DNA of 64,000 nt. It comes from Cryobacterium sp. PAMC25264. Lineage in GTDB: Bacteria; Actinomycetota; Actinomycetes; Actinomycetales; Microbacteriaceae. Positions 24,044-48,951 of the stretch are shown piece after piece. The position numbers and the translations under genes were made by a program. The stretch is taken from positions 3,472,001 through 3,536,000 of the forward strand of contig NZ_CP080383.1 in the NCBI RefSeq assembly GCF_019443325.1, given 5' to 3'. The notes under the pieces are model-generated. The model had not been told where the DNA came from and did no database searches. It saw nothing but the letters and a program-made list of their open reading frames with translations. Position 1 is the stretch's first letter; every line of letters begins with the position of its first letter.

Positions 24044-26194
24044 TTGGCCGCGCCGTATTCGGCGCCCGCCCCTTCTCGAATCGCACGATCTTCCCGCACT
24101 GCCGCCGGCGCCCCCGCCCGAGCAGCGCTCGGTCCCGGGACGCCCCGACTCGATTGGTTGCCCGTTATCAGTTCCACCGAACCCGACGCCGACGCGCGCA
24201 CTCCCAGCGCGACTCCGGCCCCGTTGATCCCTCCCACTTCAGCCGCTTCGACAACCCGGCGCCGCCGTTTCGGCGTGCATGTGGCCGCGCCGAGAATCTT
24301 CTTTCCCGCGCTGGCCATCATCGTCGCAGTGGTTCTCATCAGCATCCTCTTCCCTGTCCGCACAGGCGCCGTTCTGGCGCAACTGCAGACCCTGGTCGTT
24401 GCGGGCCTCGGCCCGTACTACGTGGTGCTGGTCGCATTCTTCGTCATCTTCGCGGTGTGGATGGGCCTCAGCCGGTTCGGTGACATCAAGCTCGGCCAAG
24501 ACGACGACGCGCCGGAGTTCGGGCTGATGTCCTGGTTCGCGATGCTCTTCGCTGCCGGAATGGGCATCGGCCTGGTCTTCTGGGGCGCCGCCGAGCCGCT
24601 CACCTACTTCTTGGAGCCCAAGCCCGGCGTACACGGCAGCAAGCCGGAGCTGGCGGCGGCGGCCATGTCGCAGACGTTCCTGCACTGGGGCTTCCACGCC
24701 TGGGCGGTCTACGCCGTTGTCGGACTCTCGCTGGCCTACGCGATTCACCGCAAGGGCCGACCGGTGTCGATCCGGTGGGCCCTGGAGCCGTTGCTCGGCG
24801 ACAAGGTCAAGGGTCGTCTCGGCGACGCGATCGACGTCACCGCGATCGTGGGCACCCTGTTCGGTGTGGCCACCTCGCTCGGGCTCGGCGTCAAGCAGAT
24901 TGCCGCGGGGCTGCGCCATCTGGGCGTCGTCGACTCGGTCAGCAACACCCTGCTCGTGGTCCTGATCGTGATCATCACCCTGATCGCCATCGCCAGCGTC
25001 GTCAGCGGCGTGGGCAAGGGCATCAAGTGGCTCTCCAACATCAACCTCGGTGCTGCTGCGCTATTCCTCGTCGCCGTTCTGCTGCTCGGACCCACGATGT
25101 ACCTGCTGCGCGTCTTCGTGCAGTCCCTCGGCGGGTACTTCCAGAACATCGTCGGTCTCACCTTCGATGCGAGCGCCTTCACCGGTTCGGCCGGACTGGA
25201 CTGGCAGGGCAGTTGGACCGTCTTCTACTGGGGCTGGTGGATCTCCTGGGCACCGTTCGTCGGGGTGTTCATCGCCCGTATCTCCCGTGGCCGCACCGTG
25301 CGGGAGTTCGTCGCCGGTGTGCTCCTGGTTCCCACGCTCGTCACCTTCCTCTGGTTCGCCGTCATGGGTGGCAGCGTGATCAAGCAGGTCTGGGAGAACC
25401 CCGCCGCCCTCGTCGACCCCGAGGTGGGGATCGTGCCGGAGAACGTGCTCTTCGATTTCCTGGCCCAGCTTCCCCTCGGCCCGGTCCTGGCGGTGCTGGC
25501 CGTGGCCATCGTGGCGATCTTCTTCATCACCTCGGCGGACTCGGGCTCCCTCGTCATCGACATGCTCGCCTCCGGCGGCGAGACGGATCCGCCCAAGTGG
25601 AGCCGTATTCTGTGGGCGAGCATGGTTGGCGTCGTCGCGATCGCGCTGCTGCTGGCCGGCGGGCTGAGCGCGCTGCAAACCGGTGCCATCCTCACGGCGA
25701 TCCCCGTCAGTGTGGTGATGATCGGTATGTGCATCGCCACCTACCGCGCGTTCCGCGCCGAACACCAGGTGCTGGTCCAGGTGGAACGCCGGGTGCGCCG
25801 GGAAGAGATGGCTCGCCGGATCAGCAAGAGCGTCACCAACCATTTGGAGAGCAACTTCGACGAGCACTTCGGCGACCAGATGGACGGCCGAATCACCGCC
25901 GCGATCACCGATGCAGCCGGCAACGTGTCCCTGCAGACGCGAGAACGGCGCTCCTTCTGGCCGCGCCGGGGGCGCGCAGCCACGCTCCCGGACGATAGCC
26001 CGGACCTGGGCGACCTGACCCCGCAGGATGTGGAGGGCATGCAGGACCTGGGCGACCTGATGCCGCAGGATGCGCCCACCACGGCCCACGCGTCTCCGTC
26101 GGAGGAGCCGCTGGCAGCGGAACCCGCTGAGCCAGCGCATGAGGGTACGTCGAATGCGTCGGACGCAGACGAGGACCCCACGCGCACGCAGTGA
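24044..26194 (+). CDS. BCCT-family betaine/choline/carnitine transporter
   Basis: 716 residues from TTG 24044 after AAGGTGGAGGG (start uncertain). Twelve membrane helices span about 80-590; the family signature with tryptophan-rich helix WTVFYWGWWISWAPFVGVF and the glycine-rich GMGIGLVFWGAAEP are present. Imports compatible solutes such as glycine betaine, driven by Na+ or H+. A long hydrophilic C-terminal tail (about 590-716) carries basic segments (a feature linked to osmosensing in BetP) and a duplicated DLGDLxPQD unit. Upstream 190 bases to pntAA are divergent. Confidence 0.92.
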   Translation: MAAPYSAPAPSRIARSSRTAAGAPARAALGPGTPRLDWLPVISSTEPDADARTPSATPAPLIPPTSAASTTRRRRFGVHVAAPRIFFPALAIIVAVVLISILFPVRTGAVLAQLQTLVVAGLGPYYVVLVAFFVIFAVWMGLSRFGDIKLGQDDDAPEFGLMSWFAMLFAAGMGIGLVFWGAAEPLTYFLEPKPGVHGSKPELAAAAMSQTFLHWGFHAWAVYAVVGLSLAYAIHRKGRPVSIRWALEPLLGDKVKGRLGDAIDVTAIVGTLFGVATSLGLGVKQIAAGLRHLGVVDSVSNTLLVVLIVIITLIAIASVVSGVGKGIKWLSNINLGAAALFLVAVLLLGPTMYLLRVFVQSLGGYFQNIVGLTFDASAFTGSAGLDWQGSWTVFYWGWWISWAPFVGVFIARISRGRTVREFVAGVLLVPTLVTFLWFAVMGGSVIKQVWENPAALVDPEVGIVPENVLFDFLAQLPLGPVLAVLAVAIVAIFFITSADSGSLVIDMLASGGETDPPKWSRILWASMVGVVAIALLLAGGLSALQTGAILTAIPVSVVMIGMCIATYRAFRAEHQVLVQVERRVRREEMARRISKSVTNHLESNFDEHFGDQMDGRITAAITDAAGNVSLQTRERRSFWPRRGRAATLPDDSPDLGDLTPQDVEGMQDLGDLMPQDAPTTAHASPSEEPLAAEPAEPAHEGTSNASDADEDPTRTQ

Positions 26195-26241
26195 TTCGTC
26201 GCCGGCAGCAGGCCGGCCGGGCGGATGCCCCGCGCAACGAG

Positions 26242-26281
26242 AGGGCCTGACGGCCGGGGATGAGCCCCGCTGTCAGGCCCT
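26242..26281. terminator. Stem-loop between convergent BCCT and dnaB genes
   Basis: A 10-bp perfect outer stem (AGGGCCTGAC against GTCAGGCCCT) encloses a second GGGG/CCCC stem. It lies 48 bases past the transporter stop and 39 bases past the dnaB stop on the other strand. No T-run in either direction; probable bidirectional hairpin terminator. Confidence 0.65.
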
Positions 26282-26319
26282 GTGGCGTCCTGGCTGGCGT
26301 CGCGGCTGGCGTCGGGGTA

Positions 26320-27738
26320 TCAGGCCCCCGGCACCATGTCCGCGAAGCGGGAGTAGTGGCCGTGGAAGGCCACCGTCACGGTGCGGGTGGGACCGTTGCG
26401 GTGCTTGGCCACGATCAGGTCGGCCTCGCCGGCGCGCGGGTTGTCCTTTTCGTAGGCGCTCTCACGGTGCAGCAGGATGACCATGTCGGCGTCCTGCTCC
26501 AGCGAACCGGATTCCCGGAGGTCGGAGATGGCCGGCATCTTATCGGCGCGCTGCTCGGGACCACGGTTCAGCTGGGACAGCGCGATCACGGGGACCTGCA
26601 GTTCCTTGGCCAGGAGCTTGAGCGCCCGGGAGAACTCACTGACCTCCTGCTGGCGGGATTCGACCTTCTTACCCGAGGTCATCAGCTGCAGGTAGTCGAT
26701 CACGACGAGCTTGAGACCGACGCGCTGCTTGAGTCGGCGGCACTTTGCACGGATCTCGACCAGCGTCATGTTGGGGCTGTCGTCAATGTAGAGCGGCGCG
26801 TCGTTGATGCGTCCGCGGGTGGCGGCGATGGTGGTCCAGTCGCGGGCCTCGACGTTGCCCTTGCGCATGCTCTGCAGGGGCACGGAGGCCTCGGCGGCGA
26901 GTAGGCGCATGGCGATCTCGCTGCGTCCCATTTCCAAGGAGAAGAAGATGCTGGGCATGTCGTGGTGGATGGACGCGGCGCGGGCGAAGTCGAGCGCGAG
27001 GGTGGACTTACCCAAAGCGGGTCGCGCGGCCACGATGATGAGCTGGCCGCCGTGGAACCCGTTGGTGAGCTCGTCGAGGTCGGCGAAGCCCGTGGGTACA
27101 CCGGTGAACTGACCGTCTTTGAGCTTGGCCGCTTCGATGTCCTCGATGGCCGCCGTCACGGCGTCGGTGAGGGGAACGTAGTCTTCGGTCTCGGTGCTGC
27201 CGGTGATGGAGTAGATCTCGGCCTGCGCCGTGTTGACCAGGTCGAGCACCTCGCCTTCACCCGCGTAGCCCATCTGGGCGATCCGTGTGCCGGCATCCAC
27301 GAGCTTTCGCAGCATGGACCGTTCGGCGACGATGGTGGCGTAAAAACCGGCGTTGGCGGCCGTGGGCACCAGGCTGGTGAGCGTGTGCAGGTAGTCGGCG
27401 CCGCCGGCCCGGGAGATCTCGCCGAGCTTGGTCAGTTCGTCGGTGACCGTGATGACGTCGGTGGGCTCACCCTGCGCGTACAACGAGAGGATGGCGTCGA
27501 AGATGATCTCGTGCTTGGGCACATAGAAGTCGGCAGCGCGCACCGTCTCGACGACGTCGGCGACGGCATCCTTGCTCAGCATCATGCCGCCGAGGGCGCT
27601 CTGCTCGGCCAGCAGGTCATGCGGCGGGGTGCGCTCGGAGTGGCGAGGTTCGGAGGTGCTCCGGTACTCGGAGCCGCGGTCGGATCCGCGCTGATCGGAT
27701 CCGCGCTGGTCTGCGTAACCCAGGTGAGCTATCGACAC
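26320..27738 (-). CDS. dnaB: Replicative DNA helicase DnaB
   Basis: 472 residues from GTG 27738 behind GAGGAGG. The DnaB N-terminal domain starts at RTPPHDLLAEQSALGGMMLS; the RecA-like domain has Walker A ARPALGKST (238-246), FFSLEMGRSEIAMRL and VVIDYLQLM. No intein is inserted at the P-loop. An N-terminal tail of about 35 residues carries a repeated QRGSD motif not conserved in the family. The hexamer unwinds DNA at the fork. Its upstream region contains a cluster of DnaA boxes. Confidence 0.96.
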   Translation of the reverse strand: MSIAHLGYADQRGSDQRGSDRGSEYRSTSEPRHSERTPPHDLLAEQSALGGMMLSKDAVADVVETVRAADFYVPKHEIIFDAILSLYAQGEPTDVITVTDELTKLGEISRAGGADYLHTLTSLVPTAANAGFYATIVAERSMLRKLVDAGTRIAQMGYAGEGEVLDLVNTAQAEIYSITGSTETEDYVPLTDAVTAAIEDIEAAKLKDGQFTGVPTGFADLDELTNGFHGGQLIIVAARPALGKSTLALDFARAASIHHDMPSIFFSLEMGRSEIAMRLLAAEASVPLQSMRKGNVEARDWTTIAATRGRINDAPLYIDDSPNMTLVEIRAKCRRLKQRVGLKLVVIDYLQLMTSGKKVESRQQEVSEFSRALKLLAKELQVPVIALSQLNRGPEQRADKMPAISDLRESGSLEQDADMVILLHRESAYEKDNPRAGEADLIVAKHRNGPTRTVTVAFHGHYSRFADMVPGA

Positions 27739-28129
27739 GCCGGGCCTCCTCTGTTGGTTGGTTCAGGTCTATCAGGAGCCGCTGACACCAGCCGCCCGGC
27801 ACGCAGGCGCATCCGGTGATCGACCCGCTTGCCTACCCTAGAGAGGCTTGCCTCACCAGCCAAACCGCCCTGTGGATAACCCTGTGGGGAATCTGCGTGA
27901 AACGCCGCCACGCTTGTGCACAAGCTGTGCACTCACCTGTGGACAACTCACGAGTATTAAATCAAAAATCGAATTTGATCAGGTATTTATTCTATTCACA
28001 GATGTGTGGAAAAACTTGTTTCAACGGTCCCTTGAATGTTGATGAAATAGGTGGGCGCCTGTGCACAAAGGGGTGGAAAACACGGCCGGAATTGTGCCAC
28101 CAACGGGGGAAGGGTGGCGGCGTTAAAGA
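27739..28129. promoter_or_regulatory. AT-rich region with a cluster of DnaA boxes upstream of dnaB
   Basis: The strip between dnaB and the rplI terminator contains perfect DnaA boxes TTATCCACA (27871-27879, minus) and TTGTCCACA (27938-27946, minus), two TTGTGCACA-type boxes (27914-27922 and 28060-28068) and TTTTCCACA (28005-28013, minus). The stretch 27955-28050 is strikingly AT-rich for this genome. It must include the dnaB promoter. It resembles an origin or DnaA-binding locus, although dnaA is 19 kb away. Confidence 0.75.
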
Positions 28130-28167
28130 GGTGTAGCGGTGGCCCCCGAAGGAACCACCGCTACACC
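28130..28167 (-). terminator. Terminator of the rpsF-ssb-rpsR-rplI operon
   Basis: A perfect 13-bp stem GGTGTAGCGGTGG/CCACCGCTACACC with a 12-base loop lies just beyond the rplI stop; CTCTTTAA follows on the transcribed strand, a weak U-tract. Confidence 0.8.
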
Positions 28168-28178
28168 CGTACAGACGC

Positions 28179-28628
28179 TTACTTAGCGGCTACCACCTGA
28201 AGGGTGATGGTCGCGCTGAGCTCGTCGCGCAGACGAACCGTCGCGGTGTGCTCGCCGGTCGCCTTGATCGGGCTGAGCTCAATCTTGCGCTTGTCGACGG
28301 CACCGAGACCGGCAGCGGCAACCGCTTCGGCCACGTCGGTGGTCTTGACGGAGCCGAAGAGGCGTCCGCCGGCGCCGGCCTTGACGACCAGCTTGACCTT
28401 GGTGCTCTCAAGGGCGACCTTGAGGGCCTGGGCCTCTTCGAGGGTGGCGTGCTCGCGGGCTACGCGGGCGGCCTTGATCTGCTCGATCTGCTTTTCGCCA
28501 CCGCGGGTCCACGCAACAGCGAAGCCCTGGGGGAGAAGGTAGTTGCGAGCGAACCCGTTCTTGACATCAACGATGTCACCGGGGGTGCCGAGGCCGGAGA
28601 CCTCGTGCGTCAGAATCAGTTTCGACAT
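28179..28628 (-). CDS. rplI: 50S ribosomal protein L9
   Basis: 149 residues, normal length. N-terminal RNA-binding part ([37 protein letters not shown]) includes the L9 signature; a long helix follows and a C-terminal domain ([14 protein letters not shown]...). Last gene of the rpsF-ssb-rpsR-rplI operon, with a terminator directly downstream. Confidence 0.97.
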
Positions 28629-28639
28629 GTGAGGGCTCC

Positions 28640-28903
28640 TTACCGGCCTGAGCCGGCGTAGGGCAGCAAGGCCATTTCGCGGGCGTTCTTGACGGCACGC
28701 GCGATCAGGCGCTGCTCCTGGACGGAGACGCCGGTGATGCGGCGGGCGCGGATCTTTCCACGCTCTGAGATGAACTTCCGAAGAGTGGGGACATCTTTGT
28801 AATCGATGACACCAACCCGGATCGACTTCGCGGGGGCGGCGTTCTTGCCACCCTTAGCACCGCGGAGCGGCTTGCGGCGGTCGCCGCTCGACTTTCCAGC
28901 CAT
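28640..28903 (-). CDS. rpsR: 30S ribosomal protein S18
   Basis: 87 residues. Contains [26 protein letters not shown], the conserved S18 core, and no cysteine pairs, so it is the non-zinc form. It partners with S6 on the platform of the small subunit, and sits between ssb and rplI in the standard order. Confidence 0.96.
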
Positions 28904-28955
28904 GATTTCCTTACTTTCTTAAACGTGTGTGCAGCCGTCAACCGTGAGGTTCGGC

Positions 28956-29465
28956 TTAGAAGGGGGTCTCGTCGCTGAAGTTGCCCGGGGTGTTCCAGAC
29001 ATCTCCGCCGCCGGTGTTGGCGGCGGGGGCGCTGGGTGCCCAGGGCTCGTCGTTGCCCTGCTGCTGCGCGACAGGCGCGCCGCCGCGAGGAGCGGACGAG
29101 GACTGCGCACGCGTGAGAGAGGCGGTGGCGTAGCGCAGCGAAGGACCGATTTCGTCGATCTCGAGCTCCATGCTCGTGCGCTTTTCACCTTCCTTGGTCT
29201 CATACGAACGCTGCTTGAGACGCCCGGAAGCGATGACACGGGAACCCTTGGTCAGTGAACCGGCCACGTGTTCGGCGAATTCACGCCAAACGCTCGCGCG
29301 CAGGAACAGTGCCTCGCCATCTTTCCACTCGTTGGCCGCGCGATCGAAATTGCGCGGAGTGGAGGCAATGGTGAAGTTGGCTACCGCCAGCCCGTTCTGC
29401 GTGTAACGCAGTTCCGGATCGCTGGTGAGGTTGCCCACCACGGTGATTACGGTCTCGCCGGCCAT
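28956..29465 (-). CDS. ssb: Single-stranded DNA-binding protein
   Basis: 169 residues. OB fold from [33 protein letters not shown] through [28 protein letters not shown]; a Gly/Ala/Gln-rich linker and the acidic tip NFSDETPF that binds partner proteins. Only 3 bases separate it from rpsF, so it is expressed with ribosomal proteins S6, S18 and L9. Confidence 0.96.
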
Positions 29466-29468
29466 GGG

Positions 29469-29975
29469 CTACTTGTCGCTTGCCTTGTCGGCGTCTGCCT
29501 CGGCAGGAGCGTCCACGGCGACCGGAGCTGCCGGGGCAGCTGCGGGCTTCGCGGAAGCGGCGACCTTGGCAGCGGGAGCTGCGGCAGGAGCGTCGGCCTT
29601 GACCGGAGCAGCAGCAGCCTTCGGGTTGGCAGCCTTGCGGGCGGCCTTCTCGGCGGCAAGCTTGCTTGCGACGGCAACCTGGGCGATGCCCTCTTCGGCG
29701 CGGAGAACCTTGGTGCGCATGACGGCTTCCGACAGCTTCAGCTGGCGGTCGAGCTCGGCAGTTGCTGAAGCGTTCGCGGTGAAGTCGACGACGGCGTAGA
29801 TGCCCTCGGCCTTCTTGTTGATCTCGTATGCGAGACGGCGGCGACCCCAAACGTCAACCTTGTCAATGGTTCCACCATCGTTGCGAACAACGTTGAGGAA
29901 CTTGTCAAGGCTGGGAGCTACGGTGCGCTCATCGATCTCGGGATCGAGGATAACCATCAACTCGTACTGATGCAT
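29469..29975 (-). CDS. rpsF: 30S ribosomal protein S6 with alanine-rich extension
   Basis: 168 residues; the S6 domain takes the first 100 ([25 protein letters not shown]..., [23 protein letters not shown]). The last 65 residues are an Ala/Lys/Pro low-complexity tail rich in [23 protein letters not shown] sequence, longer than in most bacteria. Good ribosome site GAAGGAGG. First gene of its operon. Confidence 0.96.
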
Positions 29976-30186
29976 GACTAACCCACCTCCTTCGGACTAA
30001 AACGGCTGCAGTATTTCTGCAACAGGAGGGTTGTGCATGTGTTGAAGGTGGAGGCCGGGACTCCGGCACACAGACAACCTGCCAAGACTACCCGAACGGC
30101 GAGCCAAGCGCCACCGTTCGGGTTCGGTGCCCTCCACACCGCGATTCCGGCCCATCGCCGGGTGCCCGGCGGCCCGCGGCCGAGCA

Positions 30187-46771: not shown

Positions 46772-47167
46772 TGTTCAATCTCCACGTATTGGATCTCCGC
46801 AGGCCTAAACGAGCGGCCGGGAAAGAGTGAGGTAGCCCACGGGCTGGGGTCAACTGATTAAAACTACGGCTTCGCTCGCCCGCGGTCAAACTGACGAGGC
46901 CCAAACGTACGATTCTGCCCATTGATTTCCCATTTCTGGTACAGACACGCTGAGGTTCTTCGAGCTAATTTGGCCTGACCGCCGGTCATTGACTACCGTG
47001 AGGACAAGTTATCCACAGGTTGTGGGTAAAGCCTGAGAATCCAGTCGTTGTTTACCCACAGGCGGTGGATAACGTTGTGGATGAATCGTCCGATGAGACA
47101 TTCTGTGTCGACTGACGGATGCCCGCCACGCGGCGGCTGAGCGTAAAGATCAAGATTGTGGGGAACC
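46772..47167. promoter_or_regulatory. rpmH-dnaA intergenic region with DnaA boxes (left part of oriC)
   Basis: Divergent promoters of rpmH and dnaA must lie here. A cluster of DnaA boxes occupies 47009-47084: TTATCCACA (47009-47017), TTACCCACA-type in opposite orientations (47021-47029 and 47052-47060), a one-mismatch box (47064-47072) and TCATCCACA (47076-47084). About 120 bases before the dnaA start, they suit both origin function and autoregulation. Confidence 0.8.
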
Positions 47168-48588
47168 ATGCCAGACGGGGAACAGCCCATCAGCGAAACA
47201 TGGCGGTCGGTTCTGACCATTCTGGAGTCGGATGAGTCCATCACGCCGATGCTGTACGGCTTTCTGAATCTGGTCGAACCCAAGGGCATCGCCGCCGGCA
47301 CCTTCTACCTCGAGGTGCCCAACGAGTTCACCGCGAGCATGCTCAACCAGCGCATGCGGGTGCCACTGCTCACCGCGATGGGACAGCTGAGTGAATCCGT
47401 CGCCGTCACGACCTTCTATGTGGTGGTCAACCCGGAACTGGAGCAGGAGTCCCTGCGCCCGGTGCAGGAGCCGATCGTGCACCAACCCGACATCGAAACT
47501 CCCGCGACACCGCAGTCGGTGTTCGAGAACACCTCGCCCGAACGGCCCCACGACACCCGGCTGAACTCCAAGTACAGCTTCGACAACTTCGTGATCGGCC
47601 AGTCCAACCGGTTCGCGCACGCCGCCGCCGTTGCCGTGGCCGAGGCGCCGGCCAAGGCCTACAACCCCCTCTTCATCTACGGTTCCTCCGGACTGGGCAA
47701 GACGCACCTCCTGCACGCCATCGGTCACTACGCGATGAGCCTGTATCCCGGCATCCGAGTTCGCTATGTGAGTTCGGAAGAGTTCACCAACGACTTCATC
47801 AACTCGATCGCGAACAACCGCGGCTCGGCGTTCCAGAACCGTTACCGCAACATCGACATCCTGATGATCGACGACATCCAGTTTCTGCAGGGCAAGGCGG
47901 AAACCCAGGAAGCGTTCTTCCACACCTTCAACACCCTGCACGACCACAACAAGCAGGTCGTGATCACCAGCGACCTGCCGCCCAAGGCCCTGACCGGCTT
48001 CGAAGACCGGATGCGCTCCCGGTTCGAGTGGGGCCTGATCACCGATGTGCAGGCCCCGACCTCGAAACCCGCATCGCGATCCTCCGCAAGAAGGCGCAGA
48101 GCGAAAAACTCCAGGTACCGCACGACATCCTCGAGTTCATGGCGTCGAAGGTGTCCTCCAACATCCGTGAACTCGAGGGCACCCTGATCCGGGTCACGGC
48201 GTTCGCGAGCCTGAACCGCACCCCGGTCGACATGAACCTGGTCCAGACCGTGCTCAAGGACGTCATCACCCTTGATGAGGACAACGTCATCGCGCCGGTG
48301 GACATCATCACCAACACCGCCGACTACTTCAAACTCACCGTCGACGATCTGTACGGATCTTCTCGCTCGCAGGCCGTCGCCACAGCGCGGCAGATCGCGA
48401 TGTACCTGTGCCGGGAACTGACGAATCTGTCGCTTCCCAAGATCGGCCAGCTGTTCGGCAACCGCGACCACACCACGGTGATGTATGCGAACAAGAAGAT
48501 CAGCGAACTCATGAAGGAGCGGCGGTCCATCTACAACCAGGTCACCGAGCTCACCAACCGCATCAAGCAGGATCACCGCTACAAGTAA
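47168..48588 (+). CDS. dnaA: Chromosomal replication initiator DnaA, with an apparent frameshift
   Basis: All four DnaA domains are recognisable: N-terminal [20 protein letters not shown], linker, AAA+ domain with Walker [10 protein letters not shown] (172-180) and [10 protein letters not shown], and C-terminal DNA-binding domain with [11 protein letters not shown]. But the frame breaks: after [12 protein letters not shown] the reading shifts, and the continuation [16 protein letters not shown] is in another frame. One C missing from the run at 48054-48057 explains it; adding it gives 473 continuous residues. A sequencing or assembly error is most likely because dnaA is essential. ATG 47168; an upstream TTG at 47156 is also possible. 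Confidence 0.93.
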
Positions 48589-48951
48589 AGAAAATTTTTT
48601 GTGTTTCATACCTGTGGATAACCCTGTGGAAACTGCCGGGACAACCGGGCACAACCTGTAGAAACGCATCGTCCGCTTGTGAAAACTGTGAATTACACAA
48701 AGTGATTCGTGTCATTCATTGGGCTTAACGCTCACAGGCGCTCCACAAGTTACAAGTTTGTAGTTCCCTGTCGTTCAGCACTATCCACCGAGTTATCCAC
48801 AGTTTCCACAACGGTTAAGAAGATTAACGTTTAACTTCATTAGCTCCAGGTCCAACAACCTTTACTCGCCACGGCTCACAAGAAATGGGCCGTCGAGAAA
48901 CCCGACTAGCATTGAGGCCGTATCCAGGTCTCCATCGACAGGAGTGACTTC
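48589..48951. other. oriC: Origin of replication region, dnaA-dnaN intergenic
   Basis: The 363 bases hold perfect DnaA boxes TTATCCACA at 48613-48621 (minus) and 48793-48801 (plus), with GTTTCCACA-type boxes at 48625-48633 (minus) and 48802-48810 (plus), and weaker ones such as 48781-48789. AT-rich strips at 48587-48609 and 48811-48843 (TTAAGAAGATTAACG) are candidates for the unwinding element. Position between dnaA and dnaN is standard for actinobacteria. Confidence 0.88.

Follow-up and report, generated by a model that had tools for sequence, protein, structure and literature searches.

Upstream of dnaB in Cryobacterium sp. PAMC25264 lies a dense group of DnaA boxes, and the question that it raises is why such boxes should stand beside the gene for the replicative helicase, at a distance from dnaA. 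The first-pass annotation had proposed that they could regulate dnaB by DnaA, titrate DnaA like datA, reactivate it like DARS or form a second initiation site. To our knowledge, the matching of helicase supply to initiation has been little studied outside a few models. The window, meaning the whole stretch of 64,000 nucleotides that was analysed, corresponds to C1:3472001-3536000 of the 4.06 Mb genome, and the DnaB that it encodes is 98% identical over the best segment to that of Cryobacterium adonitolivorans.

Genes and DnaA boxes of the rplI-dnaB region

The following features were assigned, with conservation values taken from the 48-sequence alignment described below.

26320..27738, minus strand: dnaB, replicative helicase, 472 aa (TIGR00665, 521 bits)
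27835..27840, minus strand: predicted -10 of dnaB, TAGGGT, 17-bp spacer (TA and final T approximately 0.9 conserved)
27858..27863, minus strand: predicted -35 of dnaB, TTGGCT (TTG columns 1.0 after rounding)
27871..27879, minus strand: DnaA box G, TTATCCACA, perfect, ending 7 bases before the -35 (mean column identity 0.96)
27883..27891, minus strand: DnaA-like box F, TTCCCCACA, 7 of 9 positions, 3 bp from G (mean identity 0.77)
27914..27923, unstranded: box E, palindrome TTGTGCACAA with one box per strand, containing TTGTGCACA (minus-strand copy, mean identity 0.75)
27938..27946, minus strand: DnaA box C, TTGTCCACA, perfect (mean identity 0.68)
27947..28030, unstranded: AT-rich segment between boxes C and A, including box B (counterpart averages 45% GC, range 32-52%, in 48 sequences)
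27992..28000, plus strand: one-mismatch box CTATTCACA inside the AT-rich segment
28005..28013, minus strand: DnaA-like box B, TTTTCCACA, one mismatch (mean identity 0.68)
28060..28068, minus strand: DnaA box A, TTGTGCACA, 189 bp from G and marking the outer limit of the array (mean identity 0.85)
28129..28168, minus strand: hairpin 3' of rplI, probable terminator with a weak T tract (86-nt fold, -40.5 kcal/mol, z -4.2)
28179..28628, minus strand: rplI (L9), last of the rpsF-ssb-rpsR-rplI group (gene assignments of all four)

The rplI-dnaB intergenic region measures 440 bp and has a GC content of 56%, against 66.5% for the whole window. The hairpin sits between rplI and the DnaA-box array and probably ends the rpsF-ssb-rpsR-rplI transcript, so that dnaB would need a promoter of its own. 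It was not reported by a consensus terminator scan, and a search of positions 26000-30000 against Rfam gave no match at E values up to 1. A 19-codon ORF overlapping the start of dnaB (27729-27788), with the motif GTGTCAGCGG, was considered as a leader peptide and rejected, since the motif in the form GTGTCNGNGG or ATGTCNGNGG was present in just 22 of the 80 dnaB-upstream regions described below and the frame was not kept.

Every word named in the first-pass annotation was found at its position, and the boxes are located 133-330 bp upstream of the start of dnaB and, as it had described, approximately 19 kb from dnaA, measured here to the dnaA start. Its AT-rich segment is likewise present, with blocks 27939-27978 and 27979-28018 each at 33% GC compared to 66.5% for the window. 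Beyond that annotation, a double box (TTCCCCACA-GGG-TTATCCACA), an adjoining promoter pattern and conservation were detected. Five TTRTNCACA boxes, representing four sites of which one is palindromic, fall within 198 bp (27871-28068), and this is the densest TTRTNCACA cluster of the 4.06 Mb genome. The genome holds 24 perfect TTRTCCACA and 67 TTRTNCACA in total, the latter giving the rate for a Poisson estimate of approximately 2e-5 for at least four independent sites within 198 bp anywhere in the genome. In a weighted scan by 300-bp segments the dnaB site reached 18, whereas the dnaA promoter cluster reached 8 and the dnaA-dnaN region 7; elsewhere, the maximum was 6 in 14 sampled stretches (270 kb), with scores of 3 to 9 in six stretches chosen for having boxes. 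Helical phasing of all boxes was also considered and dropped, as the spacings (12, 44, 57, 67, 133 and 189) do not all fall into one phase. It should also be noted that an inverted repeat, TTCAA-N7-TTGAA (28020-28036), lies beside box B and is partly conserved.

Conservation of the array upstream of dnaB

Conservation in relatives, which had been put forward as a check in the first-pass annotation, was examined using the window and 79 of 80 fetched DnaB loci, chiefly of Microbacteriaceae, with up to 600 bp upstream being scored. One locus (L071) was omitted as it offered 2 bp of upstream DNA. At least one box was present upstream of dnaB in all 80 regions, with 207 boxes altogether, 186 on the dnaB sense strand and 21 on the opposite strand. 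The spacings between same-strand pairs (175 pairs, 38 values) were concentrated at 44 bp (n=23), 57 bp (n=18) and 189-191 bp (n=33). An outer same-strand pair was found in 42 regions, being 185-191 bp apart in 40 of them and 180 bp apart in two, while the canonical outer pair was absent in the remaining 38. Across the 42 regions the standard deviation of the distance within this pair is 2.4 bp, whereas that of the interval between the inner box (G) and dnaB is 52 bp. The double box formed by F and G, with its spacing of 3 bp in the window, was present in 62 of the 80 regions and absent in 18.

An alignment was built from 48 of 62 parsed regions, with 14 more distant ones omitted. Boxes A, C, E and G showed a mean identity of 0.81 in this alignment versus 0.49 for the other columns, a value equalled by 9 of 20,000 random placements. 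The loci share ancestry, however, so that tests of this kind are not independent and shuffles overstate significance. At two loci (L034 and L064) rplI is more than 2.5 kb away from dnaB, and it is dnaB that the boxes still adjoin. At a further 19 loci no rplI was detected within the stretch fetched, some of these stretches being short, and boxes were present within the 600 bp before dnaB in all 18 that could be scored. Judged by its position at these loci, the array follows dnaB and not rplI.

A wider sample was taken from the loci of the best 30 DnaB matches among 148 genomes of the class, six of them being from the same genome or family. Boxes were present upstream of dnaB at 26 of these 30 loci (58 boxes, where shuffles predict 0.3 and a coding control had 0), and outside the family at 20 of 24 sampled loci, with none at the other four. 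Predicted boxes upstream of dnaB are thus widespread in the class sample.

A predicted dnaB promoter docked to the array

Downstream of box G, the conserved columns of the alignment spell TTG-N3-17-TA-N3-T, a sigma-70-like arrangement. A promoter pattern of TTG-N3-(16 to 18)-TA-N3-T, written after the alignment had been viewed, followed a DnaA box in 68 of the 80 regions and was absent in 12. In 57 of those 68 the start of the -35 is offset from the last box by 7 or 8 bases, as against 4.1% of base-shuffled segments. The other 11 have offsets of 18, 19 or 28 bases, and in two of them (L016 and L017) a degenerate box lies between the box and the pattern. The dnaB promoter was not reported by a consensus promoter scan, and its prediction rests on conservation.

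Outside the family, the pattern was seen in only six of the 20 loci with boxes, so that this exact geometry of array and promoter is specific to the family and not class-wide. Five of these six belong to one genus of another family, and in them the box is inverted and lies 5 bases upstream of the -35.

Relationship of the array to oriC

Two further box-bearing regions lie beside dnaA in the window.

46999..47084, unstranded: box cluster upstream of dnaA (box search, weighted scan)
48589..48951, unstranded: dnaA-dnaN intergenic region, likely the true oriC, in which the double box of the array recurs at approximately 48613-48631 (dnaN, TIGR00663)

The dnaA-dnaN site is taken by us to be the known actinobacterial oriC. 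The double box of the array and that of oriC are identical over 19 bp, and this 19-mer (CCACAGGGTTATCCACAGG) occurs exactly twice in the genome, once in the dnaB array and once in the dnaA-dnaN intergenic region; unlike oriC, the dnaB array lies beside neither dnaA nor dnaN. Among 60 genomes, the present one included, the 19-mer gave 29 matches in 23 genomes, all of the genus, while a reversed control gave no match. By location, 23 of these matches lie beside dnaA, five beside dnaB and one in a phage-like locus, so that the exact 19-mer stands beside dnaB in only five genomes. The assignments beside dnaA rest on an N-terminal dnaA query, which matched at 23 of the 23 oriC loci. At all 23 the double box starts after the C-terminal region of dnaA, and in the 22 that come from relatives, where the dnaA frame is uninterrupted, it begins 22-141 bases beyond the stop of that frame. 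A looser form, CCACA-N2/3-TTATCCACA, was present in all 41 searched genomes of the genus, with one control match overall.

In the window itself, the dnaA frame (47156-48588) is interrupted near 48050, with a 343-aa frame followed by the C-terminal part in another frame up to 48588. The frame is uninterrupted at the loci of the 22 relatives, and the interruption is perhaps an assembly error. A frame at 48408-48728, which overlaps the end of dnaA, proved to be spurious.

The phage-like locus (L102:1431-1517, in genome G015 of the same genus) has a tandem of three perfect DnaA boxes spaced by 3 bp, with a fourth approximately 50 bp before them. RusA/HNH genes flank them on one side and a phage replication-initiation gene (PHROG 3171) on the other, and the locus is probably a prophage origin using the DnaA of the host. 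Two other clusters were observed on the chromosome of the present genome. One, at C1:3413534-3413620, approximately 107 kb left of oriC, is intergenic and contains two perfect and three one-mismatch boxes. The other, at C1:3552635-3552665, approximately 32 kb right of oriC, has two perfect boxes flanked by crgA and a rhomboid gene, the next gene being one for a cyclophilin, and from this gene order it is presumed to be the likely counterpart of the mycobacterial Rv0010c-Rv0011c site.

Proposed role of the array

It is likely that this stretch is a DnaA-responsive control region of dnaB, at which an oligomer of DnaA would bind and activate the promoter. The sites, their conservation and the geometry of the predicted promoter are established by the sequence: an array of approximately 200 bp, made of mostly same-strand boxes (A, B, C, E, F and G), ends in the F-G double box at the promoter pattern. 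For this species we infer from sequence the binding itself, the growth of the oligomer, the activity of the promoter and the sign of control. ATP-DnaA would bind the F-G double box first and could then spread from it along the weaker boxes. The array-bound DnaA may touch RNA polymerase at the promoter, the centre of box G being approximately 47 bp before the inferred start, and transcription of dnaB would rise when active DnaA rises before initiation, in which case the supply of helicase would follow that of the initiator. Activation is favoured over repression since the boxes adjoin the promoter without covering it. The control of dnaB by DnaA put forward in the first-pass annotation is well supported, with boxes conserved in every region scored, an array that tracks dnaB and an end mostly 7-8 bases from the promoter pattern; of that reading as a whole, this part stood and the DARS-like part did not, on the orientation of its core. 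Helicase supply in this bacterium is probably tied to DnaA, the starter of replication, and a conserved DnaA array docked to a dnaB promoter would offer a clear and testable design in bacteria of soil and ice.

Repression of dnaB from the array, keeping helicase low when DnaA is plentiful, would have a parallel in the several promoters, including that of dnaA, that DnaA represses according to the sections available of one account (PMC11317965). It is very unlikely here, however, as box G stops short of the -35 and overlaps neither hexamer, and in M. tuberculosis less binding accompanies less dnaB expression, a DnaA variant with weaker binding upstream of dnaB also under-expressing dnaB in the part of the study consulted (PMC7738170). 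A cluster that titrates or inactivates DnaA near oriC, datA-like or of the Bacillus/Streptomyces kind, would soak up DnaA just after duplication of the locus and hold back re-initiation, with dnaB a mere neighbour. The array is the densest box cluster of the genome, lies approximately 20 kb from oriC as a datA-type cluster would, and exceeds in length what a promoter requires; the oriC-proximal clusters of B. subtilis and S. coelicolor act to repress untimely initiation, as given in a partly available source (PMC4585315). A pure sink needs neither to stay with dnaB and not rplI nor to have its end mostly docked to a promoter pattern, and titration as the main role is considered rather unlikely. 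Under DnaA control of dnaB, some titration would still be expected as a side effect, since the array would hold several DnaA molecules near oriC.

A DARS-like element, at which the array would assemble ADP-DnaA and promote its exchange to ATP-DnaA, might be read from the ordered boxes and their conserved spacing. In the DARS core two boxes point one way and the third the other, as described in the portion seen of its source (PMC5742627), whereas boxes A, C, E and G share one strand, as do 186 of the 207 boxes in the 80 regions. The comparison was of orientation alone, and in the window the palindromic box E gives one opposite box; with nothing else to support it this role has a very slim chance. 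As for a second or ancestral origin, in which the boxes and AT-rich segment would unwind and load helicase beside its own gene, the box cluster does stand with a conserved AT-rich segment (45% GC), and its double box matches that of the dnaA-dnaN region exactly over 19 bp. Skew in the window amounts to +0.035 on the left of 27.85 kb and to -0.032 in 28.08-46.9 kb, placing the sign change nearer the dnaB site, though this skew is weak and tracks gene orientation; for the genes that separate the two sites (5 plus, 6 minus), the fourfold-site skew means are ordered as for a left-hand origin, and are noisy. Against this, the difference between leading and lagging genes is slight (-0.192 vs -0.134, sd about 0.15, p 0.01), so that single regions are unreadable by skew, and all of the skew tests (window profile, sampled stretches and fourfold sites) were noisy and followed gene orientation, with a weak lean to the dnaB side. 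The site is also 19 kb from the dnaA-dnaN intergenic region, which has boxes of its own, and the conserved promoter explains the boxes more simply. A second origin at the dnaB site is very unlikely.

Returning to DnaA as the activator of dnaB, a simple activator would need only F and G, and the 190-bp array with its AT-rich middle exceeds that. A bolder reading, which is unlikely and offered as speculation, is that the array could be a second orisome-like platform, with an oriC-type double box and an AT-rich segment of its own, on which DnaA filaments would once per cycle fire dnaB and set the level or nucleotide state of DnaA, making it both the helicase switch and the initiation timer of the Microbacteriaceae.

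Comparison with known systems

DnaA control of dnaB is already known in kind, and the array with its promoter geometry is apparently new. In the literature searched, no description was found of a fixed dnaB array or of its promoter geometry, nor any paper joining Microbacteriaceae with the DnaA box. In Caulobacter, dnaB has predicted DnaA boxes and belongs to the DnaA regulon (Hottes 2005, as cited in the part available of PMC8203912), as proposed here, although that lineage is distant. E. coli DnaA needs pairs of boxes 2-3 bp apart at almost all of its targets, and a double box such as that of purH resembles F-G in having a weak box (7 of 9), 3 bp and a perfect box; the E. coli double box is a single pair, whereas the Cryobacterium pair ends a longer array (PMC11317965, sections available). 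The clusters of B. subtilis and S. coelicolor are alike in being oriC-proximal, with the role reported there being to repress untimely initiation (PMC4585315, portion available).

The closest likeness is to the mycobacteria. In the part of the account compared (PMC7738170), M. tuberculosis DnaA binds five regions in vitro, one of these, at Rv0057, being upstream of dnaB; in M. smegmatis, ChIP-seq placed DnaA at the homologues of the same five regions in vivo. A DnaA site upstream of dnaB, at the same gene and in the same class, is one of these five strong sites (PMC7738170). Three of the other four are likely matched here by oriC, the cluster upstream of dnaA and, by gene order, the rhomboid-crgA cluster. 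The M. tuberculosis peak is assigned to Rv0057, in contrast to the Cryobacterium boxes in the rplI-dnaB intergenic region, and a fixed array docked to a promoter is not described in the portion of that account compared (PMC7738170), nor is such a geometry given in the available parts of the published-map accounts. The first-pass annotation had named a lack of DnaA binding together with a lack of conservation as what would speak against it; the array is conserved, and the equivalent mycobacterial locus is bound by DnaA in the data available from that account (PMC7738170). With boxes present at 20 of the 24 loci sampled from beyond the family, the DnaA site that mycobacteria have upstream of dnaB would seem to be an old actinobacterial feature.
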